Positions 1-13,765 of a stretch of 47,422 nt of DNA are shown here, piece after piece. A program made the position numbers and the translations under genes. This DNA comes from a virus. The notes below the pieces were generated by a model that saw only the letters and a program-made list of their open reading frames with translations, was not told the origin of the DNA and ran no database searches. Location: the IMG/VR virus record IMGVR_UViG_3300025030_000169, positions 1 through 47,422 of that record; one strand, written 5' to 3'. The stretch's first letter is position 1. The number at the start of each line of letters is the position of its first letter.

Positions 1-3000
1 CGCTGGATGATATGCTGAATCTCGTGGTGAACGGTGCTGCGTGCCGCCTCGTTATCCATCCGCGAGTTGACATAGATCGTCACATCCTGCGGGGAAAATA
101 TTCCTCTGCGGTTTGGCCCCAATGACCGGAAGGCGATGTTCACGCCCTTGAGGAATGGGTATGCCTGGAACAGTCCGCGGTCTTTCAGGACATCCGACAG
201 TTTGCCGTCGCGCATCTCGAGCGAAGAAAGGCTGTCGTCAAGTTCGAAACTCCATTGTCCCGGGACGATCTCCCACCAACCGGTTTCCTTCCAGATGTCC
301 TCGCGGGGCTTGCCGGCGGCTTTCATCTCCTGGGCCTTGGCCAGTTTGCCGGTGTCGGCTGTGGTGGCATTTTTGCCGGCAAAAGAGAATAGCGGATTTC
401 CGGCGCCGTCACTCCACTCTTCCATGGATGAATCTTTGACGGGTGCCATGGCGATAAGGACATTACCCTTTCTCGTCACCTCGCCGAAATACTGACGCAC
501 TTCATCCTCATACCAGGCGGTCTTCTGGTGATTTTGCCATGAAGCGGGAGCGCCGTTGACTACCTTTGTAACCCGGCTGTTGCCGTCACCGTCGCCTTCA
601 TGGATCTGGAAATAGGCGGTACCGTCTGCTTTGATAGCCTTGGCCGCCTGTCGAATTACCGCCAAGCGAACAGGCTTCTCTTTGATGACATTCAGCACAT
701 TATTTACGGTCGCCGTGTCGGTCCTGTTGGCCGTCAATTCTTTGACAACATCTTGGTTATGCTCGGCCGATCTGTTGAAAGGATCGTAGACCAAGTTCTT
801 TATTCCTTGTTCCTTCAGGTATTCCGTCCCGGCGTCATACTTTCCACCGCCGATGTCGACATTGACGGTTCCCGGCTTGAGGAAGTTTTTCTTGAAGAGT
901 GCCGGGACTTGGTTCAATGAAGTTGCGGCCGAAGAGATAGCCTGCAGGACCTTCTCGGAGAACATCGGCGCGGCCATGTTGCTGCCCTGGATATCCCCCC
1001 CGCGCTTCACCGCGCTGATCGCCATGACCCGCAGGTCATCGACAGACAGGTAATTGACGAACCGGTTACCGAACACCCTGATCAGGATCTTCTTGGCCGC
1101 TGCCATGATACGGCGGACTACTCCCGACTCCGGAGCGTCCTCGACCATGTAGGCCATGACCTCGCTCCAGTAGTGCTCAGACTTCGTGCTCTTCGGCACC
1201 CTGGCCATCGCGGCGCGGATCGCCCGGCCGGTCCTGCCGGATTCTCTCTGCCGCTTCGACAGGGACCGCTCTATTGCCTGATACTCCCTGTCCTTGAGCA
1301 TCAGTTTGCGGAGGTGAACGCCAACCTCATGGTTGAGGACATCGCCGGCCCGGCCTTTCTGAATGCCATCGGCCACGAGCCATGACTTGGTGCCATCGGT
1401 GAAACCTTGGATGGTGCGGCCGTCTTCTGAGTGGAGGATATCCGGAGATGTCAGCCGGTCGATGACCTCCATGGCTTCTTCCTGGGTGCCGACGAAATCA
1501 ACCGCCCCGGATTCCACGAGAGAGGTGAAGGTCTCTTCGCCGATGGTGGAGCGCAGTTCGTCTTCCAGTTGCGCCACGGTGCGGCCGGTGGTGGTGCCGC
1601 CGGACTTCGAATATTCGACACCGAGTTTCGCCTTTTCCACTTCCTTCGCCACGGCATCTTCTGAAGCATTGCTTTTCTTCCGGCTCTCCAGTTCCCGCTC
1701 GACCGCCGTCAGCCGCTCCCCTTTCTGCTTCAGATCATCTTCTTTGGCAAATGGCTTTCCCGCCACTTCCTTGTAGGTAGGCAAGTCCTTCTCGGCTGTC
1801 GCAAGAAGACGGGCTTCATTGTTTGCCCTTGATGAGATATCTTCGATGGTGTCCAGGGTGCCGCGGAACAATGAAGGCATCGCCGTGTGCGCCCGGTTGG
1901 CGGCGAGGGTCGAGGCATAACTCTGGTTGACGAGGTAGGATTGCTTCCCGCCGGGAAGGTCTATTCGGCGCTCAAAGAAGAATTCAACCTGTTTTTTACG
2001 ATCAACAACCTTGTGCTTCTCATAACCGACAGCCGACATCGAAACCTGCATGGAAAGATCGATATCGATACCATGAACAGTGACGGTCCCGAGCATGATC
2101 TCATCGGATTCGGAAAAGTCCGGATCCTGCTTTTCAATCTGCTCGAGTTTAGCATTGGCCAGGGCAACGACTTCCTTGGTGGCCTCGCCACGCTGCTTGA
2201 AGGACTTGCCGTTGATCTTCATGGCAAAGAAAGCGGCATCGCCCAAGACCGCATGCAGGGCATCCTCGGCCTTGACTTTGGCCCGGTACTTCTTGCCGTC
2301 GATGGTGACGGAAAAAGGTTCCGCGCCTTCCTTCTTCGACTCTTCGATCAGTTTATCCAGGGCCTTCCTGGCGTCGGAGCCGCCATAAGTGGTGCCGTCG
2401 ATGTCGACGGTGGCCGACTCCCACTTTCGCCGCTCGTCGGCGGTGGCCTTCTCGACTGTCTTCGCCGCAGACTCCAACTCCTTGATCATGGCCGGCGCCG
2501 TCTCGATGGTCCGTTCCATCCGGTGAATGGTGTCTTCGGCCGCCCATCTTTGCCGCTCATGTGCCCGCTTCAGCCGCTCAAGTTTGTCGATCTCGGCCGA
2601 CAACTGCACCCGCTCAAGCTGCAGCGGTTCTCCGGAGGCGATAGCCGCAATCTCGGCCATGCCAACGGCATCGGTATCGTCAAACTCCATAGTGAAAGAG
2701 CCGTCATACTGCCGAATGCCGTTGATCATCTTCAACTTGGTGGAATTGAGCGCCCACATCTTGGCATCGACGGTGGTGTCGGTGGTATAGGCCAGGATTT
2801 CCACCTCGAAGTTATCCCGGATAGAATTGCCGTTTTCATCAAAACCGATTCTATTGCCCTGACGGATGATGCGCCCCTCGCGCTGTTCGATGTCGGAAGG
2901 CTTCCAGGTGACATCGACATGGTGAAGGCCGACGAGCCGCTCCTGAACGTTGGTCCCGGCGCCCATTCGCGGAGTGGAGCCGATAAGCACCCGCACCGCG

Positions 3001-6000
3001 CCGCTGTTCACTTCCTCGAAGAGGAATTTCTTCTTCTCGTCGGTGTCGGCTTCCTGGATAAACCGGATCTCGTTTGCGGGAATACCGCGCTCGACAAGAT
3101 TATCCTTGATCTGCTGGTAAGCGTTCCAGCCACCGGCCTGGGCAATCCTCAGTTCCTCGATCTCTACCGGGTCGAACCGCTCCAGGCTATCACCGATGCG
3201 CCTGATAGCCGCTTCATCTCCGGTGCGCTCGGCCGCCTCCAGTTTGGCCATGAGCTCGTCGTAGGTCTTGATGATCTTGTCATCGCCTTTCGCCTTGGGG
3301 ACGCTCCGGTCCAGGAAGATAAGTTGGGTGCCCTTTTCGGCCGTCCATTTGCGATGGAGCCGCACAACTTCATCGGATACCCTGGAGAGTTTTCCGCCTT
3401 CCTCGTTGCTGTCGATACCTGGCCTAGCCGCCCGGGCATCGAGTGAAACCTTTCTGGCCCGGTCCATCAGCCGCAGGCGCGCCTTATTACGCTCTTTCGG
3501 ATCGGTGATGCTTTCCAGTCCGTCAAAGCCGCTGATGATGTCCTCGATGATTCCGCGCTGTGCCGGCGTCGGTTTGACGTTGATACCCACCCGGCCGCCG
3601 CCCTTGACTTTCGGCAAGGGAAATTGAGCGCCGTTGTTGTCCTCGGCGTACCACTTCTGAATATCGTCATTCGATACGCAATCGGCGAAGGTGTAGTAAA
3701 GGTCCATGAGGGACCGGGTATTCGTCCAGTCGCGGCCAAGGCGGGAAACCTCCTTGAGGCCCTTGCCGGAATCGGTCGGCTCGAAGGCGCTGTTGACGGA
3801 AGCGAAGTTGTTTCGCCAGGCGTCGAAATGTTCCAGACCGTGCTCCTCAAGGAGTTCCGGCACCAGGTAGCGCATAAGGGTATACATCTCGACCGCGCTG
3901 TTCGATATCGGGGTGCCGGTCATGAAGGCGATGGAGCCGTTTTTCATCTCGTGAAGGACACGTGTTTTTGTCCACAAATCGTAGGCTTTTCCAGACCCGC
4001 CTTTCGGCCCCATGCCGCGCACGTTGAGGCTTGAAGTGTAGAACAAATTTTTCCCGATATCGTGTTCTTCGTCGACGGTCAGGTCATCAACTCCCAACTG
4101 CTCAAAAGTGAGGAGTCGGTCTTTCTTCCCGCTCTTCTCCTTTACCTGGGCCAGCCGGTTCTTGATCTTGTCGCGCAGGGCTTCCGCCTCTTTCACGGCC
4201 AACGGTTTTCGGAAACTTCCGCCATCATGCCCGGTTTCTGCCAGTGCTTCCTTCACGGCTTCCTCAGCAATGGCCAGCTCTGCTTCCAGGTATCTGGTCT
4301 CGGTAGCCGGAGAAATGCCGATAAACTGGAAAGAGGAATGCGGGACGATAACCATATCCCAATCGCCGGTTGCGATCTTGGCGAATATCCGGCGGCGCTT
4401 TGCCGGGACCAGATCTGACTTGCCGGCGGCCAGCAGCTTGGCCCCCGGGTAGAGCTTATAAACGTCCTTGGCAAACTGCTCGACAAGATGGTTCGGGACA
4501 ACGATCATTGGCTTACGGGAAAGCCCCATGCGCTTTCGCTCGAGCGCCCTGGCTATGCTGGTAAAGGTCTTGCCGCTACCGACAGCATGGTCGAAGAGAA
4601 CAACATTATCGACGATCCCGCGCCATATGGCGTTCTTCTGGTGCCGGCGCATGGCAATGATGGCATCTGGCACCTTCCCCGGGAACTGCAGGTGTTGCCC
4701 GTCGCGCTGCTTGGTGACCCGGACATTGAATTTGTCGTTGAAGATTTTTACCAACCTGTTCCGGCGGTCGGAGTCCTTGAATACCCATGCGTCGAATTCA
4801 TCCTTGATCTCGGCAGCCTTGGCTATTGCCGCATCGGTCGCCTCCTGGTCGACATGAGTTTTCCCTTCATGGTCGGTGTAGGTGACTTTGATCGGCCGAT
4901 TGTTGAGGATGGCGTCCACGAGCGCAACTGGACTCCGTTGCTGAGTGCCCCAATTACTCGGACCGGCCGTCCTGCCCTGAACATGGAAGGTGTTTGTGGT
5001 GCGGAAATACTTCACCTCTGCCGGGCTCTTGGTCAGGTGAGAAAGGAAATCGGCATAGACATCCGCCGGAATCCACACGCCGCCGATGGTCGCCGTCACC
5101 TTGTCGGCGGTCCACGGCTCCGGCAGCACCTTCTCCAGGGCCTTGGCGTTCTTCTCCAGGCCTTTGGCCTTGGCCGCCGCCATCTTCCTCACAACATTAC
5201 CGCCGAGATATTCGTCGGCCGGTTCCCACCTGTCAGTTTCCGGATCGAAGAAGATGAGCGGGGTATCGAGGTCGTCATGCAGGGCCTTGACGGTCTCATC
5301 CTCGCTCTTGCCCAACAGTTCGGCCACTCTCTCAAGGCTGATTCGTCCGGTCTCCGACAGGTTGATGGCCAGGGCGTCGGCGGGCGTCGCCGCCGTGGTG
5401 GCCTTCTCTACCGGGGAGATGACCCGCTTGCTCAAGATGGTGGCCTGCTCAACCATGGCCTGTTGAGGCGCTATGCCGAGTTTCTTCGCCTTGTCCTTAT
5501 CGATCGGCGGTTTGTACTTGCTTTCCAGGGAGAGGAGCAGGGCACTGTTCGGCATGCCTGCCAGGATGTTGGCCGTCTTCCTGTCGTTGATATGCGAGTG
5601 CTCTTTCACATAGGCGTCATACTGCCGGCGCAGTTTCGCCCGGTTGCTCTCCATCTCCTTCTCGGATGAATCGGAAGTCTCGAGGTTGATCTGCTTGGTG
5701 AGGGTTTCGAGAAGCTGTATAGAGTCGCGCAGGCGATTATACCCCGGCTCGCCGAGTTTCATGTTGGCCGGAATGTCGCTTTCCTTCTCGAATACTTCTC
5801 GGGTTTTCTGGTTCCGCTTGGTCGCCTTGTCACCGACAACCACCTTGACCTTCGCCCCCTTTTCATCAACCTTGTCGACATCGCGGAACCACTTGCCGTC
5901 CTTGTCCATGCTGAGAGCCGATGACCAGGGGGAAGATGGTGTGATAACCCGCTTGGATAGAATGGTGTCTCCGCCGTCGGTCTCGCGGTCGATAACCTGC

Positions 6001-9000
6001 TCCAGTTCGCCAAACTCATTGAATGAGATGGAACCCAATTCCTGACCGGAGAGGGAAATCTTCATGGCGTCGACCATGTTCTTGAAATACTGCGCCTGCT
6101 TGTCGGCTGGTGCCACTTCAACGGCGATATCCGCCGGCATGGTCTTGATGATCTTGTCTAGGCGCGCTGCAATGTCCTCGGACTTGTCGAGTTTCACATT
6201 GACGTTGGTCCCGGATCCCCGCATGGAGCCGGATCGTTCCAGTCGGCCGATAACCGCTGCCGGGTTCGATTTGAAATAGGCGTTGACCCTCATCGGCTCG
6301 CCGCCGAGCGGATCTGGAATGGTTGTGGTTTCCACCCACTCAGGATCTGGCAGGGTGATCTTCTGTTTTGCGGCGGTCTCCCGGGCGGTCTCCATCGCCG
6401 AGAGTTCGCGCTCGGTGTATTTCTGCAGGAAGAGAACATCCGTCACGACATCGGTCTTGGCATTCTCCTTGAAAGCCGTATCCGGCAGCCGGATGGCGGC
6501 CAGGAGTTTTCCTTTTCCAGCCAACAGTTTACGAACGGTGGTATCCTTTCCGTCCATCAGGTAGCGCGAAACCACCATCACCTGCAGGCCGCCGGGCTTC
6601 AGAGCGTCCATCCCGGCTAGGAAGAACTGGTGATGAATCGTGTAGGGATTGAGGTCCGGATTGTGCGGGAAGTTGAGCCGGTCTTGCCCGAAAGGCGGAT
6701 TGCCGATTACCAGGTCAAAGCTGTTTTCAGGCAATGGAAGATCCTGGAAACCGGAATGGAATACTGCGGCGTTCGGGTAGAGGTGCTTGGCAATGCCGGC
6801 CGTGATATTGTCGTACTCGACCGCCATCATGTTGGTATTGCCGGCCAGGGATTCCGGCATCAGACCAAGGAAGTTGCCGACACCAACAGAAGGCTCCAAG
6901 ACGTTGCCGCCCTTGAACCCCATGCGCTCGACCGCCTTCCACATCGCATTCACGACCGGGAAACTGGTGTAGTGCGCGGCCTTGGTGCTGTTCCTGGCAA
7001 CGGCCAGTTCTTCTGGTGTCAGGATCTTCTCGAGTTCGGCAACACGATCCTCCCAGCCGCTCTTTACCTCGCCGGTTACGCCATTGCGGAAGGAATTGGC
7101 CAGCCCGCCCCAGCCGACATACCGGGCGAGGGCGCGTTGCTCATCCGGAGTAGCCCGGCGCTTTTCTGATTCGAGTTTCTTGAGGATTTTGATAGCGGCG
7201 AGATTGTCGTTGAACTTCACGGTCTCACCGCCTTGACCGAGACGAACGTCTTCGGTAATGCGGAAATTTACTGCGGGAGTGGTGGCTGGGCCGCTTACTC
7301 TCTTTCCATCTCCTCTACCACTTCCTTCTCCGGTTTCAGAAGAATGTACCTCGGCAACATCACCTCTTCCGCCTCGTGGTGCTGATACCCCGCCTGCATC
7401 AGGCTTCTTATTCCCTCCTGCGTTCTTTCGGCCGCCTTGAGCGCTTCCGCCTGCAGGAGCCCGGCCGCTTCCAGTGCCGCCGCTTCCTTCGGACGCCATT
7501 CCTTCCAGTGCATTATCGCCTGGACCTGCAGCTGCTTCGTCGTCTGCCCGTACTGACTTCCCTTCACCTGACTGATTTTCGTTATCGGCATATGGTTCAC
7601 CTCCCCTTTCTTCAAGCGTACTCTTGTTAGGCTTTTCTGTCAACTCGACTTCGAGGTTTCCATTCCGCACGTCCTTGACGAATCGCTGCAGGTAGGGCCG
7701 GATCTTGTCACCGAATTGTCCGTAGAAGTAATTGATGAGTTCCTTGACGGAATACCCAAGATCCTTTACTCCATTCCAGGCGTTGACGAAATGAGGCTTG
7801 GCCTTTTGATATGTCTCCTCATCGAATGCCGGCCCCATCCTGATGGTATTCGGATCGCCGAAAAGAGCAGTGAGACCGGCCATGGCGTCCTTGACCGCCG
7901 ACTGCGCGGCAATGCCGCCTTCCTTGACGATCTGCCCGGCGGTCTTCTTCGGCGCTGGCGGACTCGGCGGGTTGCTCTTCGGCGGCCGGGGGGCGATCGG
8001 CGCTTTCGGTTCACGGGGAGGCTTCGGCGGTTCGGCAGTCTTTGGCGGTTTCTCGGCTGCCCGTTCCTGGTCTACCTCGTCAAAGAGATTGTCGATATCA
8101 TCATCCGACATTTCCTGGAGTTGTTCCAGGGTCGACTTCGGATCTGCCTCTGGCCTTTCCTCGACAAGACGAACATTATCGGAAGTGGTCTCGAAAGATT
8201 CCCCGTTTTCCAGGGATATGGAAACAAGAGGTTTTTGTCTGCCGATCTGGACGAACCGGCTGACGCTTCCACGTTCGCCCTTGTTTTCGCCGTTGGTTAT
8301 TACCACCTGGTCGTTGGGGTAGAAACGATCTTCAGTTGTGGTGCTATTCGCCTCGATCTGCGCTTTCTGCTCGGGAGTTACGAGGTCTTTCAGAATGGAC
8401 GGAACCACTTTCGGCTGCACCTCATCAAACAGGTACATCTCGGCCGAATCCTTGTCGGACTGGCTGGGCTTCTCAAGGTTGTGCCGGAACATGCGGGCGT
8501 TGTAATTGTCGCCCCGGGACTCGGCCTCGGCCAGGGCGTTTTCCATCAACCACCGGTCCACCCGCTTCAAGGTGTTCTCGGCCTTTCTGTTCGAGTCGGT
8601 TGCCACTTTCGGAAAAGGAGAGGTCTGCCGGCCGGTCGCGGTGAGGCGCACGTCGCCTTCAGCCAGCATTTCGCCGGTTTTGCCGCGGGGAATGGATATC
8701 CCGGAATTTTCCAACCCTTTGACGTTTTGATTTTCGGTTCCGGAACTGGTTTTGTTTTCTGTTTTCGAATTCTCTGAGGTCTGGCCTGTTTTTCCCCCTG
8801 GGTCGCCGGTGAGGTGCTGCTCACGAATGAACCACCCGCCATCCTTCTTGAAGGTGAATTTGTCGATGGCCTTTGCTTCTTTCCAGGTAATGTCGGTGCG
8901 GACTATTCCGCGAATGGTCTTGCCTTTCTTGGTGACGTGCTCAACGATATTGTCTTTTTTTGGTGTTGTTGAGTTAGGAATATTATTTTCTATAATTTCA

Positions 9001-11867
9001 ATGGCGCTAGCCGTTTCATCACCGGCCTGTTTCTGCTCCATTTTCTCCGGGTAAAGTTTCGCGATACCGTTTTTCGCCCACTGGTTATTGCTGTACGCCT
9101 GCAGAACAGGAAGAGGAACGGGAAGATCAAACCGCAACGCTTCTTTCACAGAGCGCGGATGTGCAGCCAGGCGGATGGCCTTTTCGTCGGTATCTGTGAT
9201 CCCTGCGGTGTACTCTTTGGGAGTCATTTGATATGGACTCTTTTCAGAAACAGTGGCTTTCGTTTCGGCATTCGCAAATTCGACTTTTGGCATTCCGAAA
9301 GTGGGTTTTCGGAATGTGTCCTTTTTCGATTTCGTCTCAGAAAAGACAGTTCTTTCTCGGACGAATACACCTTGGCTTGGCCCTTTTCCGCTCACCCATT
9401 TCTTGAATACCGGCATGGCGATTCGAGTAACAGATTTGCCACCTGTCCACCCTGCCTCATAACTGGAATTGTAGAGGGCAAGGGCTTCCTGCTCGCTATT
9501 CACGCCAGCCACGACCTTGTGCTCATCGAAAGAACCATCTGCCTTGTGCTGGTTGACCACGTAGACATTATCCGCCCCGCCCTGATAGCCGGGTTTCACC
9601 ATGATATCGACATGATCCTTATCATACCCCTTGGACCCGAGTATGCGGCCGTAGTCGGCCTTCATCTCCTGGGACCATTCTTTGCCTGAAGCGTCCTTGC
9701 CGGAGCGCACCGAGCCGGCCGGGTTTTCGATGGAAAGACTCAGCCCGTCGATTGAAGCCTTGGCGGTCTTGTAGTTCTCAGCTTCCTTTTGGGCTTCGGT
9801 CGGCGCGAGGTTGATATCCTTGCCGTGGACGATGGAGGAAGGATTGTCTACCGTGTTCTTAGGCGCCGCCTGGACGCTCTGTTCCCCGGTGCCGCCTTCC
9901 AACCCTGTGGTACGAATATCCCCTTGCTGAACAGATCCTCCATCTGTTTTCCCGTCAGATACAAGTGAGCCGCTTCCCGCCCCGTCTGTTCCTTGTGGTA
10001 GAGAGCCAATCTCTCTATATCCTGGATACTTATTGATCTGCCCATCTGTCTCTCCTTCTGGTTGATTTGCAAAAGCCGCTGCGGCATCATCAAGGCGCGC
10101 CTGTCTCCCCTCCACATCGACCATGGCCGGCGTCTGTTCCTGGTTCATGAACGCCTGAGCGGATTCTTCGGCGGTCGGCGGTCGGCCTGTACGGTTCGCT
10201 TCCAACTCTTCCATGGAAAGCTCTCGGTCAGCCAAACCCTGCTTTAGATTCTCGAATCGCTGCTTTCTGGTCCTGGTGTCGGCCATGCCCTGTTCGTCTT
10301 CTGCCTGGCCCGTCAGGTCCCACATCAGGTCGCGAGTCTCTTCCGGGAATTGCTGATTGAGGACATCGGCGTCTATCTGGTCCCTGGCCCCTTCCGGAAG
10401 GATGGGGGAGTAGCCCTGCTGCTGGTCCGGACCATAGCCAGGCTCTTGGCCGGGAACCGGAATACCGAGATGATCAAACACCCCTTCCTTCACGAACCGG
10501 TCTTTGGCGTCCTGGGGAAGTTGCGGATCATTGAAGAATTCGAGTGCAGCATTGACCCGCTGTGCTCGGTCATCTTCTGATTCGACAGGTGAACCGGTGA
10601 GTATCCCGGCCAGTTCGACGGCGGCTTGAGAGTCGGGAGAGTCGGTATTCTCGCTGTTGAGTGATTCACCGAGAAGGGCATTGACCTCGTTTTCAAGAGG
10701 GTCTGTGCTTGCTGATCGGCGGATAGGCCTTCCGGCGGCAACGTCTTCAAGAGCTGCAACGCGCCACTGATCAGCGTCAGGGACCTTGTTCTCCTTGGCC
10801 GACTCATAAAGTGCGTTGACTATTTCCGCCCTGGTTTCCGGTTCGGTGGCTTTCGGGTCGTTCAGGGCGTTGTCAACCGCTTCGGCATGCTGTGACCGGC
10901 GATAAGAGGCATGCAGGCCAAACGGCGCGAGCCAGGCGGTCATGCCGAGCGTCGGTAGGATTGACGCCTTGGCCTGTTCAATTGGATCGGTGTTGACGCC
11001 AGCGTTCTTTTCGACTGTGGCTTGGCCGTAGTTCTGGCCCATCTCCGTTAATGTTTCGCCTATAGCTGTCTTGACCAATGCCTTGGCAAACGGCCGAAGG
11101 ATTTCTTTGTTGGTGGCTTGGCCAATGACACTCGAGATGGTTTTTCCCGCACCAATGCCGAGCAGATCTTTACCGAAACCGAGAAACTTTCCGCCAATAT
11201 AGGTGCCGAGAGTTTCACCGGCAGTCTCGATTGCGCCAGACTTCCAGCCGGCAGTTTCGGCTGCCTCCTCGGTGCCGCCTGCTTCCATGACCGCTTCTTT
11301 CGTCTGCTGCGCCTGGGCCATGCCCATAGGAACGGCTCCACCAAGGGCGGTAAGTCCAAGGCCTATGCCGCCGGCAGTCAACGCTTCCGGCAGGAGGGCA
11401 ACACCGGCACCCACGGCCAGTGCAGGGACAATCGATGACGGAATCATCTCTGCGCCTTGAGCGAGGGTATTGGTGACGGCACTATGGTCTTCCGGGTGAA
11501 GCTGGTTCTCCGGACGCTCAAGGTATGCTTTACGGTTTTCCGCCAGACTTTTTCCGTAATGCGCCAGGCCCTGGGCCTTTTCCTTGCCGATGATGTTTTC
11601 GGTAACGGGTGATTCCGTTCCCCACTGAAGCGCCTGACCGGCCATCTCCGGAAGGACACCCAAGGTGCCACGCTTCCATGCGGTGCCGAGTTCTCCAAGT
11701 GCTGACCGCGGCTCCTGCGGCTTAGGGGTGTTCGCGATAGATTCTACCTGATCAAACACACTGAGACTTTTGCCGGCTGTCGCGTTTTGAACAGGTGGCG
11801 GGACCGGATCGGAAGCGTCGATAGAAGAGGATATCCGAGAATCTACATCATCAAAGATGTTGCCCAT
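1..11867 (-). CDS. Giant phage polyvalent protein (methyltransferase-helicase-peptidase), 3' end cut by window edge
   Basis: A single frame stays open from ATG at 11867 to the left edge, more than 3955 residues. Seen in order: small-residue-rich hydrophobic stretches (about 140-275); a pyrophosphatase-like core GRILGSKGYDKDHVDIM (740); KOW-like NDQVVITNGENKGERG (1182); Pro-rich and Gly/Ser-rich linkers; an N6-adenine methyltransferase with VLEPSVGVGNF (1655) and NPPFG (1723); a superfamily 2 helicase with GSGKT (2429), DEEH (2599), MTGTPISN and QREGRIIRQGN (2995); a coiled coil (3075-3150); HEVGVH (3513); a second SAM-methyltransferase-like domain with VDIGGGKYD (3669) and NVLNVI (3720); then an LPD23-like segment ending in HEIQH (3948). 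Such domain mixtures are known as phage/conjugative polyvalent proteins, and P1 DarB (methylase-helicase) is a virion-carried antirestriction example. Injection with the DNA is inferred. The ATG follows the previous stop by 14 nt and lacks a convincing Shine-Dalgarno, so translation is probably coupled. Confidence 0.9.
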   Translation of the reverse strand, partial: MGNIFDDVDSRISSSIDASDPVPPPVQNATAGKSLSVFDQVESIANTPKPQEPRSALGELGTAWKRGTLGVLPEMAGQALQWGTESPVTENIIGKEKAQGLAHYGKSLAENRKAYLERPENQLHPEDHSAVTNTLAQGAEMIPSSIVPALAVGAGVALLPEALTAGGIGLGLTALGGAVPMGMAQAQQTKEAVMEAGGTEEAAETAGWKSGAIETAGETLGTYIGGKFLGFGKDLLGIGAGKTISSVIGQATNKEILRPFAKALVKTAIGETLTEMGQNYGQATVEKNAGVNTDPIEQAKASILPTLGMTAWLAPFGLHASYRRSQHAEAVDNALNDPKATEPETRAEIVNALYESAKENKVPDADQWRVAALEDVAAGRPIRRSASTDPLENEVNALLGESLNSENTDSPDSQAAVELAGILTGSPVESEDDRAQRVNAALEFFNDPQLPQDAKDRFVKEGVFDHLGIPVPGQEPGYGPDQQQGYSPILPEGARDQIDADVLNQQFPEETRDLMWDLTGQAEDEQGMADTRTRKQRFENLKQGLADRELSMEELEANRTGRPPTAEESAQAFMNQEQTPAMVDVEGRQARLDDAAAAFANQPEGETDGQINKYPGYREIGSLPQGTDGAGSGSLVSDGKTDGGSVQQGDIRTTGLEGGTGEQSVQAAPKNTVDNPSSIVHGKDINLAPTEAQKEAENYKTAKASIDGLSLSIENPAGSVRSGKDASGKEWSQEMKADYGRILGSKGYDKDHVDIMVKPGYQGGADNVYVVNQHKADGSFDEHKVVAGVNSEQEALALYNSSYEAGWTGGKSVTRIAMPVFKKWVSGKGPSQGVFVRERTVFSETKSKKDTFRKPTFGMPKVEFANAETKATVSEKSPYQMTPKEYTAGITDTDEKAIRLAAHPRSVKEALRFDLPVPLPVLQAYSNNQWAKNGIAKLYPEKMEQKQAGDETASAIEIIENNIPNSTTPKKDNIVEHVTKKGKTIRGIVRTDITWKEAKAIDKFTFKKDGGWFIREQHLTGDPGGKTGQTSENSKTENKTSSGTENQNVKGLENSGISIPRGKTGEMLAEGDVRLTATGRQTSPFPKVATDSNRKAENTLKRVDRWLMENALAEAESRGDNYNARMFRHNLEKPSQSDKDSAEMYLFDEVQPKVVPSILKDLVTPEQKAQIEANSTTTEDRFYPNDQVVITNGENKGERGSVSRFVQIGRQKPLVSISLENGESFETTSDNVRLVEERPEADPKSTLEQLQEMSDDDIDNLFDEVDQERAAEKPPKTAEPPKPPREPKAPIAPRPPKSNPPSPPAPKKTAGQIVKEGGIAAQSAVKDAMAGLTALFGDPNTIRMGPAFDEETYQKAKPHFVNAWNGVKDLGYSVKELINYFYGQFGDKIRPYLQRFVKDVRNGNLEVELTEKPNKSTLEERGGEPYADNENQSGEGKSVRADDEAAAGPGDNALEGMASEGSGGTGSGRAPAGGSAQGGRKNAGGNKKPDAGGVSAPRGGRGDVAEVHSSETGEGSGRGDGKRVSGPATTPAVNFRITEDVRLGQGGETVKFNDNLAAIKILKKLESEKRRATPDEQRALARYVGWGGLANSFRNGVTGEVKSGWEDRVAELEKILTPEELAVARNSTKAAHYTSFPVVNAMWKAVERMGFKGGNVLEPSVGVGNFLGLMPESLAGNTNMMAVEYDNITAGIAKHLYPNAAVFHSGFQDLPLPENSFDLVIGNPPFGQDRLNFPHNPDLNPYTIHHQFFLAGMDALKPGGLQVMVVSRYLMDGKDTTVRKLLAGKGKLLAAIRLPDTAFKENAKTDVVTDVLFLQKYTERELSAMETARETAAKQKITLPDPEWVETTTIPDPLGGEPMRVNAYFKSNPAAVIGRLERSGSMRGSGTNVNVKLDKSEDIAARLDKIIKTMPADIAVEVAPADKQAQYFKNMVDAMKISLSGQELGSISFNEFGELEQVIDRETDGGDTILSKRVITPSSPWSSALSMDKDGKWFRDVDKVDEKGAKVKVVVGDKATKRNQKTREVFEKESDIPANMKLGEPGYNRLRDSIQLLETLTKQINLETSDSSEKEMESNRAKLRRQYDAYVKEHSHINDRKTANILAGMPNSALLLSLESKYKPPIDKDKAKKLGIAPQQAMVEQATILSKRVISPVEKATTAATPADALAINLSETGRISLERVAELLGKSEDETVKALHDDLDTPLIFFDPETDRWEPADEYLGGNVVRKMAAAKAKGLEKNAKALEKVLPEPWTADKVTATIGGVWIPADVYADFLSHLTKSPAEVKYFRTTNTFHVQGRTAGPSNWGTQQRSPVALVDAILNNRPIKVTYTDHEGKTHVDQEATDAAIAKAAEIKDEFDAWVFKDSDRRNRLVKIFNDKFNVRVTKQRDGQHLQFPGKVPDAIIAMRRHQKNAIWRGIVDNVVLFDHAVGSGKTFTSIARALERKRMGLSRKPMIVVPNHLVEQFAKDVYKLYPGAKLLAAGKSDLVPAKRRRIFAKIATGDWDMVIVPHSSFQFIGISPATETRYLEAELAIAEEAVKEALAETGHDGGSFRKPLAVKEAEALRDKIKNRLAQVKEKSGKKDRLLTFEQLGVDDLTVDEEHDIGKNLFYTSSLNVRGMGPKGGSGKAYDLWTKTRVLHEMKNGSIAFMTGTPISNSAVEMYTLMRYLVPELLEEHGLEHFDAWRNNFASVNSAFEPTDSGKGLKEVSRLGRDWTNTRSLMDLYYTFADCVSNDDIQKWYAEDNNGAQFPLPKVKGGGRVGINVKPTPAQRGIIEDIISGFDGLESITDPKERNKARLRLMDRARKVSLDARAARPGIDSNEEGGKLSRVSDEVVRLHRKWTAEKGTQLIFLDRSVPKAKGDDKIIKTYDELMAKLEAAERTGDEAAIRRIGDSLERFDPVEIEELRIAQAGGWNAYQQIKDNLVERGIPANEIRFIQEADTDEKKKFLFEEVNSGAVRVLIGSTPRMGAGTNVQERLVGLHHVDVTWKPSDIEQREGRIIRQGNRIGFDENGNSIRDNFEVEILAYTTDTTVDAKMWALNSTKLKMINGIRQYDGSFTMEFDDTDAVGMAEIAAIASGEPLQLERVQLSAEIDKLERLKRAHERQRWAAEDTIHRMERTIETAPAMIKELESAAKTVEKATADERRKWESATVDIDGTTYGGSDARKALDKLIEESKKEGAEPFSVTIDGKKYRAKVKAEDALHAVLGDAAFFAMKINGKSFKQRGEATKEVVALANAKLEQIEKQDPDFSESDEIMLGTVTVHGIDIDLSMQVSMSAVGYEKHKVVDRKKQVEFFFERRIDLPGGKQSYLVNQSYASTLAANRAHTAMPSLFRGTLDTIEDISSRANNEARLLATAEKDLPTYKEVAGKPFAKEDDLKQKGERLTAVERELESRKKSNASEDAVAKEVEKAKLGVEYSKSGGTTTGRTVAQLEDELRSTIGEETFTSLVESGAVDFVGTQEEAMEVIDRLTSPDILHSEDGRTIQGFTDGTKSWLVADGIQKGRAGDVLNHEVGVHLRKLMLKDREYQAIERSLSKRQRESGRTGRAIRAAMARVPKSTKSEHYWSEVMAYMVEDAPESGVVRRIMAAAKKILIRVFGNRFVNYLSVDDLRVMAISAVKRGGDIQGSNMAAPMFSEKVLQAISSAATSLNQVPALFKKNFLKPGTVNVDIGGGKYDAGTEYLKEQGIKNLVYDPFNRSAEHNQDVVKELTANRTDTATVNNVLNVIKEKPVRLAVIRQAAKAIKADGTAYFQIHEGDGDGNSRVTKVVNGAPASWQNHQKTAWYEDEVRQYFGEVTRKGNVLIAMAPVKDSSMEEWSDGAGNPLFSFAGKNATTADTGKLAKAQEMKAAGKPREDIWKETGWWEIVPGQWSFELDDSLSSLEMRDGKLSDVLKDRGLFQAYPFLKGVNIAFRSLGPNRRGIFSPQDVTIYVNSRMDNEAARSTVHHEIQHIIQ
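7295..7591 (-). CDS. Nested out-of-frame small protein inside the giant gene (98 aa)
   Basis: This ORF lies wholly inside the giant polyvalent gene in the +1 register. Its ATG (7591) follows a perfect 8-nt anti-SD complement, GGAGGTGA (7597-7604), by 5 nt. The product looks like a real soluble helical protein: it begins MPITKISQVKGSQYGQTTKQ and holds MHWKEWRPKEAAALEAAGLL, with well spread Trp, His, Tyr and charged residues and mostly G/C third positions. In the giant frame the same DNA encodes a featureless Gly/Ser/Asp linker (about residues 1425-1524), the kind of segment that tolerates a second code. A TTG 24 nt upstream is in frame but would overlap the ribosome site. Function unknown. The alternative is a chance open frame produced by Gly-rich codons; the ribosome site and composition argue against this. 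Confidence 0.6.
   Translation of the reverse strand: MPITKISQVKGSQYGQTTKQLQVQAIMHWKEWRPKEAAALEAAGLLQAEALKAAERTQEGIRSLMQAGYQHHEAEEVMLPRYILLKPEKEVVEEMERE
9848..10045 (-). CDS. Second nested out-of-frame small protein inside the giant gene (65 aa)
   Basis: The ORF begins with ATG at 10045, 6 nt after AGAAGGAG (10052-10059), a strong ribosome site. It starts MGRSISIQDIERLALYHKEQ and continues with HLYLTGKQMEDLFSKGIF, a plausible amphipathic helical protein. The C-terminal 15 residues are Arg-rich and less convincing. The overlapping part of the giant protein (about residues 607-673) is Gly/Ser/Asp-rich linker immediately before the pyrophosphatase-like domain. It uses the same alternative register as the nested ORF at 7295-7591. 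Function unknown. A chance ORF remains possible, and the evidence is weaker than for the other nested ORF. Confidence 0.42.
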   Translation of the reverse strand: MGRSISIQDIERLALYHKEQTGREAAHLYLTGKQMEDLFSKGIFVPQGWKAAPGNRASRRRLRTR

Positions 11868-11881
11868 TGAGTATATCCCAA

Positions 11882-13765
11882 TTAGTTGAATTTATTCTTT
11901 AAAGCCTTGTATTGCTCGGGATCGTTTTTGGCAAGGTCGAGAAGTACAGACATCTGTTCTGGTGAAGCGTTGTCACTATTGAAATCGTTACCGAAAAGAC
12001 TATCAATATAGCCAGGAGGGTACACGAATCTCCCTGTTCCTGGGCGTTGGACGCCTTTTTTGTCGAACTCTGGCTTTACATATGTCGGGACATCGCCTTT
12101 GTCTTTCTTCTCATCCTTGTTCGCTAGTGTTCTCAATTCTGTGGCAATAGCGCTTTTCCTTTTCGAATCGGTATCAGGAGAGAGGTATTCCTGCTGCAGT
12201 TTATTGATCGTGTCAACCTGCGCAAGTCTGCCTTCATTCAACGATGAGCTTGCCTTGTAATTACCGATCTGCGCTGTCGAGAGATTTTCATCGATAGTGT
12301 TTTTCCGATTCATCTCTTTGGCGCGATTGGCTTCCACGACAGATTGTAACCCGAGTTTCTCCCGTTCTACGCCGAGCTGCCCTTGATTCCTGGTATTAGC
12401 TCCTCCTTCGGCGATAGTCCTTTCCTCCAAAGATCCTTGGTTTGCAATTATTCTTTCGTTTAGGCTCGACCTTTGTTTCCATCCCATGCCTGGCGCATTT
12501 TCTTTCGTGAGAAGACCATCGGTTGGAGAAGATCCTTTGGTTTTCTTGCCGAGAATTCTATCTGCATTCATTGAGGCAAGCTGCCCTTGAGACAGTCCTG
12601 ATTGCTGTACCTGCGCGTCGTAACGGTTTATCTGCGCTGTAGGTCGAACAGGATTTTCCATGAATCGATTTATCGCAGATCGGTCTGTGCCTGGGGCAAA
12701 CTGCACATCGAGATTTCCAACCTGGCGAAGACTGCCAGCAGGAATCTCAGTTGCTGGTCCGGATGGGGGCCTACTGCCCTCAAGAGCATTCGCTGTTTTG
12801 AATGCAGCTACGTCACCCAAGGCTTTGCCGCCAGCATTCCCCGGGCCGATATTGGTCAACATGATTGGCCCTGTGGTGCGGTTCGTATTGTAAAGGGATG
12901 GATCGTTCGCAGGATTGGCCATTGATAGCGGCACAGCTGCCCCTGGCATGGCGGTCTGTTGTGGTTGAGAAGCAGGTGCAACAACAGGCTGAACAGCTCC
13001 TGGATTTTGCTTTGGCGACACAAACGGCTGATGTTCTGGTGTGTGCTGTGCCAACATCGAACCATCAGGCGGCTTAGGACGTTGAATAGGAGGCGTTGTT
13101 GTCGTCGGCGAGATGTTCGTCACCGCGCCATGAGGATTGGTAGCCGTGGCTCTCGCTGCCGGGATAGGAACCGGTGCGATGTCAACCCCGGAACCTCCAA
13201 CCTTTCGCTCATAGTTCGGCCCCATCAAGGCCCCAACTGCCTCGCGTTCTCCAACTGGAGTTCTATTGGCGGTCACCGGATCGTTTGCAGTATTAACGAA
13301 GTCGGCCAAAGAATTTCCGGTGGCATCCTGGACAGCACCGACTTGTGGCGCCAGTTGTCCTGCAGGCTGGGCAACATCTTTCAATCCCTGCTTTATCCCC
13401 ATGACTCTCAAATGTTCAGGAGAAGACCGCCTCCTTCTGTCCATTGCTTCTTGTCCGAGTATCGGCTCGCTGGCACCACCAGCAGAAGAAGGGCTGTTCT
13501 CCGGGGTAAATGCGCCACCAGAAAGATTCGGATCTATTTTTGATACTGACGATGCGTTGACATTGAACCGTGGCCCTGTAGATTGCGGGACAATATCTTT
13601 CAACCCCGCAACTGCCGAGCTCGCCTGATTGACGATATTTCCTGCCTGATAGCCGAGAGATGCCGATGGTGGTAGTCCTTGAGATAGCTGTCCACCTTCA
13701 GTAAAACCAGGCTTTTCTTTTCTTGCTCGCATGAATGCGTCGGTAAAATTTTCACTGGCAACCAT
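11882..13765 (-). CDS. Large disordered virion-associated protein (627 aa), function unknown
   Basis: The protein is rich in Pro, Gln, Ala, Gly, Ser and Asn over most of its length, with a proline-rich tract around residues 225-285 and charged, helix-prone segments after about 400. It has no recognisable enzyme motif and no membrane segment. ATG at 13765 follows GGAGG by 8 nt. It is the last gene before the giant polyvalent gene and follows tail genes, the position where podoviruses often encode internal or ejected proteins. A role as internal virion protein or as partner of the giant protein is inference. The 100-nt gap upstream (13766-13865) is AT-rich and holds no gene that I can support. 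Confidence 0.7.
   Translation of the reverse strand: MVASENFTDAFMRARKEKPGFTEGGQLSQGLPPSASLGYQAGNIVNQASSAVAGLKDIVPQSTGPRFNVNASSVSKIDPNLSGGAFTPENSPSSAGGASEPILGQEAMDRRRRSSPEHLRVMGIKQGLKDVAQPAGQLAPQVGAVQDATGNSLADFVNTANDPVTANRTPVGEREAVGALMGPNYERKVGGSGVDIAPVPIPAARATATNPHGAVTNISPTTTTPPIQRPKPPDGSMLAQHTPEHQPFVSPKQNPGAVQPVVAPASQPQQTAMPGAAVPLSMANPANDPSLYNTNRTTGPIMLTNIGPGNAGGKALGDVAAFKTANALEGSRPPSGPATEIPAGSLRQVGNLDVQFAPGTDRSAINRFMENPVRPTAQINRYDAQVQQSGLSQGQLASMNADRILGKKTKGSSPTDGLLTKENAPGMGWKQRSSLNERIIANQGSLEERTIAEGGANTRNQGQLGVEREKLGLQSVVEANRAKEMNRKNTIDENLSTAQIGNYKASSSLNEGRLAQVDTINKLQQEYLSPDTDSKRKSAIATELRTLANKDEKKDKGDVPTYVKPEFDKKGVQRPGTGRFVYPPGYIDSLFGNDFNSDNASPEQMSVLLDLAKNDPEQYKALKNKFN

Follow-up and report, generated by a model that had tools for sequence, protein, structure and literature searches.

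A conserved overlapping gene, apparently TnpV-like, in a linker of giant DarB-like polyvalent genes

Within the giant DarB-like gene of a virus recorded in IMG/VR lies a second gene, which we call N2, that is read out of frame across one of the giant's linkers. Comparison with its relatives indicates that N2 is a real, conserved overlapping gene, and that the DNA at this position most likely specifies two different proteins. The N2 product would be a separate helical protein, of ~75-120 aa across the family, that is made alongside the giant. Taking the explanation as a whole, we consider it probable that N2 is overprinted on the giant's linker, encodes a protein of its own, is a relative of TnpV, and arose, as the likeliest route, when a small gene was captured and read through by the giant.

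The giant gene and its two nested reading frames

The window, by which we mean the whole stretch of 47,422 nucleotides that was analysed (record IMGVR_UViG_3300025030_000169, positions 1 to 47,422), carries a giant frame that is open from position 11891 to the window's first bases (3-11891; 3963 codons), has its first ATG at 11867, and is truncated by the window edge (Table 1). Pfam matches in the giant are PF18823, PF07669/PF02384, SNF2/ResIII and PF18838, and its domains include LPD23. An N6 methylase is fused to an SF2/SNF2 helicase and accompanied by LPD domains, which is the makeup of DarB-like polyvalent proteins such as DarB of phage P1 (Iyer et al. 2017, PMC5512222); by contrast, the passages of that paper located by term search make no mention of a nested gene. 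Relatives of the methylase domain were present by tblastn in 103 phage records, ~27 of which were retrieved and inspected for N2 or TnpV. In one IMG/VR relative, the giant's helicase is interrupted by a large in-frame insert (L003:11510-12532) that is absent from the window and from a second relative, L002; the end of the insert matches the Pfam family Intein_splicing (E 5e-7), and the insert looks like an intein.

Table 1. Features on the minus strand of the window
Feature	Position	Strand	Basis and remarks
Giant DarB-like polyvalent gene (host frame)	3..11867	minus	phrog_10089 DarB-like antirestriction and Pfam matches
AGGAG upstream of the N1 ATG	10052..10056	minus	sequence; 5-nt match, within chance
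N1, nested +1-register ORF, 65 aa, unsupported as a gene	9848..10045	minus	present in the window and L005 only
Inorganic pyrophosphatase domain, PF18823	9393..9797	minus	giant aa 699-833 (E 1.9e-45); follows the N1 linker
Shine-Dalgarno of N2, GGAGGTGA	7597..7604	minus	8-nt match, 5 nt before the ATG
N2, nested +1-register gene, TnpV-like helical protein (predicted), 98 aa	7295..7591	minus	family nesting, constrained frame, model pLDDT 89.7
N6-adenine methylase domain	6372..7271	minus	PF07669/PF02384 within giant aa 1720-1828; starts right after N2
SF2/SNF2 helicase domains	2856..4658	minus	ResIII, SNF2-rel and Helicase_C matches; giant aa 2412-3012

The first-pass annotation had reported two small ORFs that share a register and lie in linkers flanking folded domains of the giant. 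Both are present on the minus strand, start one base into the giant's codons, and sit in Gly/Ser/Ala/Asp/Glu-rich stretches beside folded domains: N1 precedes the pyrophosphatase domain, and N2 directly precedes the methylase-helicase (aa ~1541 onward). The common register had been taken to suggest a system. However, the openness of the frame accounts for it, as in 1000 synonymous-codon shuffles of the giant, with ATG ORFs of at least 65 aa counted per register, the +1 register held a mean of 7.97 such ORFs versus 8 observed, and the +2 register 0.27 versus 0. Since the shuffles give equal counts, the shared register is uninformative by itself. An ORF like N1 (at least 65 aa, Shine-Dalgarno match of at least 5) is expected 0.89 times per shuffle and one like N2 (at least 95 aa, match of at least 7) appeared in 2% of shuffles, so that N1 falls within chance and N2 beyond it. 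Comparison of the sequences with those of relatives makes the excess of N2 over chance decisive, and the two ORFs are different in kind despite their common register.

Conservation and constraint of the nested frames

N2 is intact in the IMG/VR relatives L002 and L003, including a two-codon insertion that keeps both frames open. A homologue occupies the same place and register in five methylase relatives at ~60% identity (L010, L011, L012, L013 and L014), and none was found in the more distant methylase relative L015. Alignment scans then gave a family sample of 25 + 66 IMG/VR loci and 6 bacterial genome loci, to which 13 named phage records were added. When 125 loci were scanned with an HMM, N2 was detected in 119. 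In 109 of these it is overlain, in register -1, by a giant frame of >400 aa; the remainder are PBC5, counted twice, in which N2 overlaps the giant and is fused to the upstream ORF, and 8 others. Among the 93 distinct sequences, 85 have N2 nested under an overlay frame without any stop, mostly directly upstream of the methylase domain; the other 8 are L060, L088 and the 6 genome loci.

Nine isolated phages whose frames we checked carry N2 (SopranoGao, Atu_ph08, VvAW1, Mwe-JY07, POI1126, PEp14, Itty13, Stean and PBC5). The feature tables of all nine records list no separate N2 gene, and those of Itty13 list genes on the opposite strand. At this same site, Burkholderia phage JC1 and Pseudomonas phage USP_25 each have a nested ORF that is divergent (E 0.003 with TnpV; E 1e-4 with the N2 model). 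Neither model found N2 in two other methylase carriers, Pseudomonas phage 8P and Pseudoalteromonas phage Y7. As tblastn queries, N1 and N2 of the window itself gave no match among phages, where family members matched later; N2 gave no match in a search of plasmids, and PADLOC returned none of 4.

Shine-Dalgarno matches of at least 4 nt precede 82 of 91 N2 starts, compared with 313 of 1760 control ATGs; two further sequences have no ATG nearby. With its ATG and Shine-Dalgarno, N2 appears to possess its own translation start, and it would therefore most likely be translated by ribosomes that start inside the giant's mRNA. In a different reading, N2 would not be a protein in its own right but a second C-terminus, into which translation of the giant's upstream frame shifts. 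This is what Sinorhizobium phage PBC5 would suggest, in which an upstream polyvalent ORF enters N2 in frame by an apparent one-base difference (L041:5709-6282). However, PBC5 is one old record, and the difference may stem from an error in sequencing or from a true split. Given the Shine-Dalgarno of N2 itself, and an in-frame stop that lies close upstream of nested N2 (median 29 codons; within 60 codons in 70 of 85), we regard the frameshift reading as highly improbable.

A bona fide overlapping gene is recognized by purifying selection that acts on its nested frame when relatives are compared, and N2 shows such selection. Changes were counted in 26 independent pairs (distinct sequences without the 6 genome loci, 1-30% divergence, at least 180 aligned bases, each sequence used once). 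They fell at N2 codon positions 1/2/3 in the numbers 198/185/435 (chi-square P ~3e-32 versus uniform), with the giant's third position changing least, and the downstream control in the same giants gave 372/263/1578 at positions 1/2/3. Between the window and L002, the giant has a pN of 0.083 over N2 versus 0.012 elsewhere, and a pS of 0.095 versus 0.252 elsewhere. Codon usage was compared at the 85 of 93 distinct loci where the giant is long enough. The mean log-RSCU is 0.174 for N2, -0.311 for the linker frame and 0.261 for the giant elsewhere; N2 exceeds the linker at 78 of the 85 loci, and the linker falls below the rest of the giant at all 85. Together with the ribosome-binding sites, these comparisons show that constraint falls on the N2 frame; the giant's linker at this position is read-through sequence.

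The idea that N1 and N2 alike are open by chance, in a gene with biased codon usage, and yield no protein draws on the length and register counts, which equal those of the shuffles, and it suits N1, which recurs in L005 only. For N2 it is refuted by the third-position bias in the 26 pairs, by the conserved Shine-Dalgarno sites and by the predicted fold, and as an account of both ORFs it is almost certainly wrong.

N1 of L005 is 86% identical to that of the window. The 14 differences are spread over nested codon positions as 1/8/5, with 9 non-synonymous and 5 synonymous, such that this one relative and its 14 changes provide no excess of synonymous changes and no sign of purifying selection on the N1 frame. 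Fifteen loci with the pyrophosphatase domain were compared, four of them already in the relative set. N1 was found only in the window's contig and that of L005. A further 13 relatives of that domain have no N1, namely L002 and L003, in which the linker at the N1 site differs, and 11 more. The giant's synonymous divergence is nonetheless lowest over N1 (0.145 versus 0.469 elsewhere; Poisson P ~1e-4), which, together with the AGGAG ahead of its ATG, might be expected if N1 were a real, young captured gene as well. However, low divergence fits a recent exchange of the linker equally as well as it fits dual constraint, and N1 consequently stays unproven; considering also its nested substitutions and its absence from the 13 relatives, we find a young gene quite unlikely, and N1 is probably just an open frame within a variable linker. 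The first-pass annotation had proposed that small genes were captured between domains of the giant, whose frame then read through them as linker, and had named relatives whose linker has no open small frame as the observation that would refute it. N2 fits this proposal well; N1 does not, in view of L002, L003 and the 11 further relatives.

Likeness of N2 to TnpV

The AlphaFold model of N2, built from an alignment (A8) of 63 sequences, with 89 distinct references listed plus the window, is all-helical at a mean pLDDT of 89.7. The window's N2 did not match TnpV (PF14198) at E 1. Among 18 aligned N2 members, PF14198 matched three (best 4e-4, under the Pfam gathering cut-off), and TnpV was the sole Pfam family matched by more than one of the 18. 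An hhalign comparison of N2 with TnpV gave E 1.7e-4 over 51 columns (probability 49%), and the first three helices of a TnpV model (pLDDT 86.4), which lie within the hhalign-aligned stretch, have the order and spacing of those in N2.

Judged by helix order and spacing, the two predicted models have a three-helix core in common. N2 also resembles TnpV, which is encoded by a small gene of Tn4451-type transposons and conjugative elements, in a sequence match that is weak but repeated, and canonical TnpV likewise lies inside methylase-helicase genes and shares the register of N2 there. In contrast, the N2 alignment and model have neither the N-terminal strand pair nor the C-terminal signature of TnpV, its scores stay under the gathering cut-off, and it is nested, whereas the passages of PMC3158075 that treat TnpV describe a free-standing gene. 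N2 is thus apparently TnpV-like, a distant relative short of a proven member.

Foldseek searches with the N2 model gave a best E of 2.8 against the PDB and a best match in BFVD to Q8W6J4_2 (E 4e-4), presumed from its length and period to be the orf33 product of PBC5; the TnpV model had no BFVD match under 0.001. We dropped an 'endolysin' match (phrog_938) as a hint to the function of N2, because the profile length of 2185 is that of PBC5 orf33, whose C-terminus would be N2 in frame.

A search with PF14198 of 20 phage and viral records gave matches above the cut-off in nine. In seven of these, TnpV lies in register -1 inside a methylase-helicase frame (MT836028, MT836171, MT838062, MT835923, MT835532, MT835575 and Listeria phage OR846775); in two Streptococcus phages it is separate, either directly 3′ of the SNF2 gene (MN270279) or far off (MN270259). 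Two clostridial plasmid records, L191 and L192, also have TnpV nested, which brings the total for nested canonical TnpV to nine records from gut phages, a Listeria phage and clostridial plasmids. No TnpV was found in the methylase-carrying records MT835857, MT835870, PP438435 and BK070120. In the Monoglobus plasmid L192 (L192:5160-12347), a 'TnpV protein' is annotated and the SNF2 gene is begun ~1.9 kb later, and the giant frame is open through both.

Six of 25 IMG/VR TnpV loci are nested with 0 overlay stops, and the 19 standalone loci have 3-8 stops in that frame; L194 and L216 have identical figures in this set, and in L197 the giant frame ends soon after TnpV with no methylase within. The stops in the standalone copies imply that, in this AT-richer group, an open overlay accompanies the giant and does not arise by default. 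We also built a tree from 29 TnpV sequences (L160, L181, L211, L216, L217 and L218, being near-copies, short or divergent, were left out). On it, TnpV must have switched between the nested and the free state at least three times, and some of the standalone clades are interspersed with nested ones; the trio L202, L203 and L205, all standalone, branches inside a nested clade with supports of 88-93. Here, therefore, escape is as possible as capture, and traffic may have gone both ways.

Origin, possible role and implications

N2 homologues also stand free of any giant. They occur in 8 of 398 genomes of one Burkholderiaceae sample, and in the copies checked no giant homology was found within ~1.5 kb. 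In Alphaproteobacteria, a second-subfamily model found one copy in 385 genomes, the one already known, and nothing further. One free-standing copy, L125, has an internal stop. The overlay frame of standalone N2 in the GC-rich Burkholderiaceae has 0 stops in five of seven copies, so that openness alone is little proof in GC-rich genomes.

Capture followed by read-through is the likeliest origin of N2 on the sequence comparisons, although not proven. It would have begun with a small mobile-element gene adjoining a methylase gene. The frames upstream and downstream would then have been joined through N2, by way of the sole alternative frame able to stay stop-free, and the new joined frame would have become a disordered linker of the giant. 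When N2 proteins were back-translated with local codon usage, the overlay frame that is used was open in a mean of 5.9%, and the other in 1.1%. Because N2 has normal codon usage, the linker is anti-preferred, substitutions follow N2 and homologues stand alone, the evidence leans toward N2 as the older frame, which the giant came to read through. The normal codon usage of N2 could instead reflect long selection on N2 rather than greater age.

The older frame of an overlapping pair is expected to be the folded, codon-adapted and conserved one, and the pattern of N2 and linker is the reverse of what an older giant frame would lead one to expect. This bears on the opposite history, in which N2/TnpV arose de novo by overprinting in the giant's linker and escaped later, the nested state being ancestral. 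Nesting at similar positions in Proteobacteria phages and Bacillota-associated elements would agree with such a history, as would the free trio within the nested TnpV clade. However, it is the N2 frame that is folded, codon-adapted and conserved, while the giant's linker is low-complexity, anti-preferred and fast-changing, and we think a de novo origin unlikely. Overprinted genes of viruses are the topic of a review (PMC8227390). As in such genes, one DNA stretch would give two proteins and the second frame is disordered and fast-changing; in contrast to those genes, the small frame at N2 looks to be the older and belongs to a family that also exists free.

The first-pass annotation had looked to phages with a split polyvalent protein and the small ORF alone between the parts, and none was found. 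Found instead were PBC5, where N2 is fused to the upstream half; L020, in which two adjacent stops (L020:8676-8681) break the giant ~330 bases before N2, and thus split it naturally upstream of N2; and MN270279, with TnpV 3′ of the methylase-helicase gene.

As to its role, N2 would likely serve as an accessory of element DNA transfer together with the methylase-helicase, for example in the protection of incoming DNA or in excision. In the relevant part of PMC3158075, an excision role is postulated for TnpV of Tn4451 from its homology to lambda Xis. The strand-free model of N2 does not obviously support an Xis-like fold.

In the open-access literature, judged by titles and the beginnings of abstracts, we found no description of a gene that lies within DarB-like or SNF2 methylase genes. 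It is conceivable, and we put it forward tentatively, that across two bacterial phyla the methylase-helicase genes of phages and conjugative elements are commonly two-protein genes, in which a captured TnpV-like gene lies out of frame and is recycled as linker. Were this true, polyvalent giants would have a general route of assembly, whereby neighbours fuse through a small gene between them and the small gene is kept. A protein family lies hidden in one of the commonest giant phage genes, unannotated in at least nine isolated phages, and models of DarB-type antirestriction should then add a second protein. Automatic annotation may cut the giant short or omit the small gene (compare L192).

Pairs of nested and free-standing copies also offer a natural experiment on the formation of fused giant genes. 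The neighbours of free-standing N2 include, as named by eye, apparent integrases and element regulators. Beside one such copy lies a second small ORF (L147:876-1298, minus strand) that resembles the nested ORF of phage JC1, and in a Paraburkholderia (L124:2963-11426) free-standing N2 is located between what appear by eye to be type I restriction genes and a cytosine methylase.
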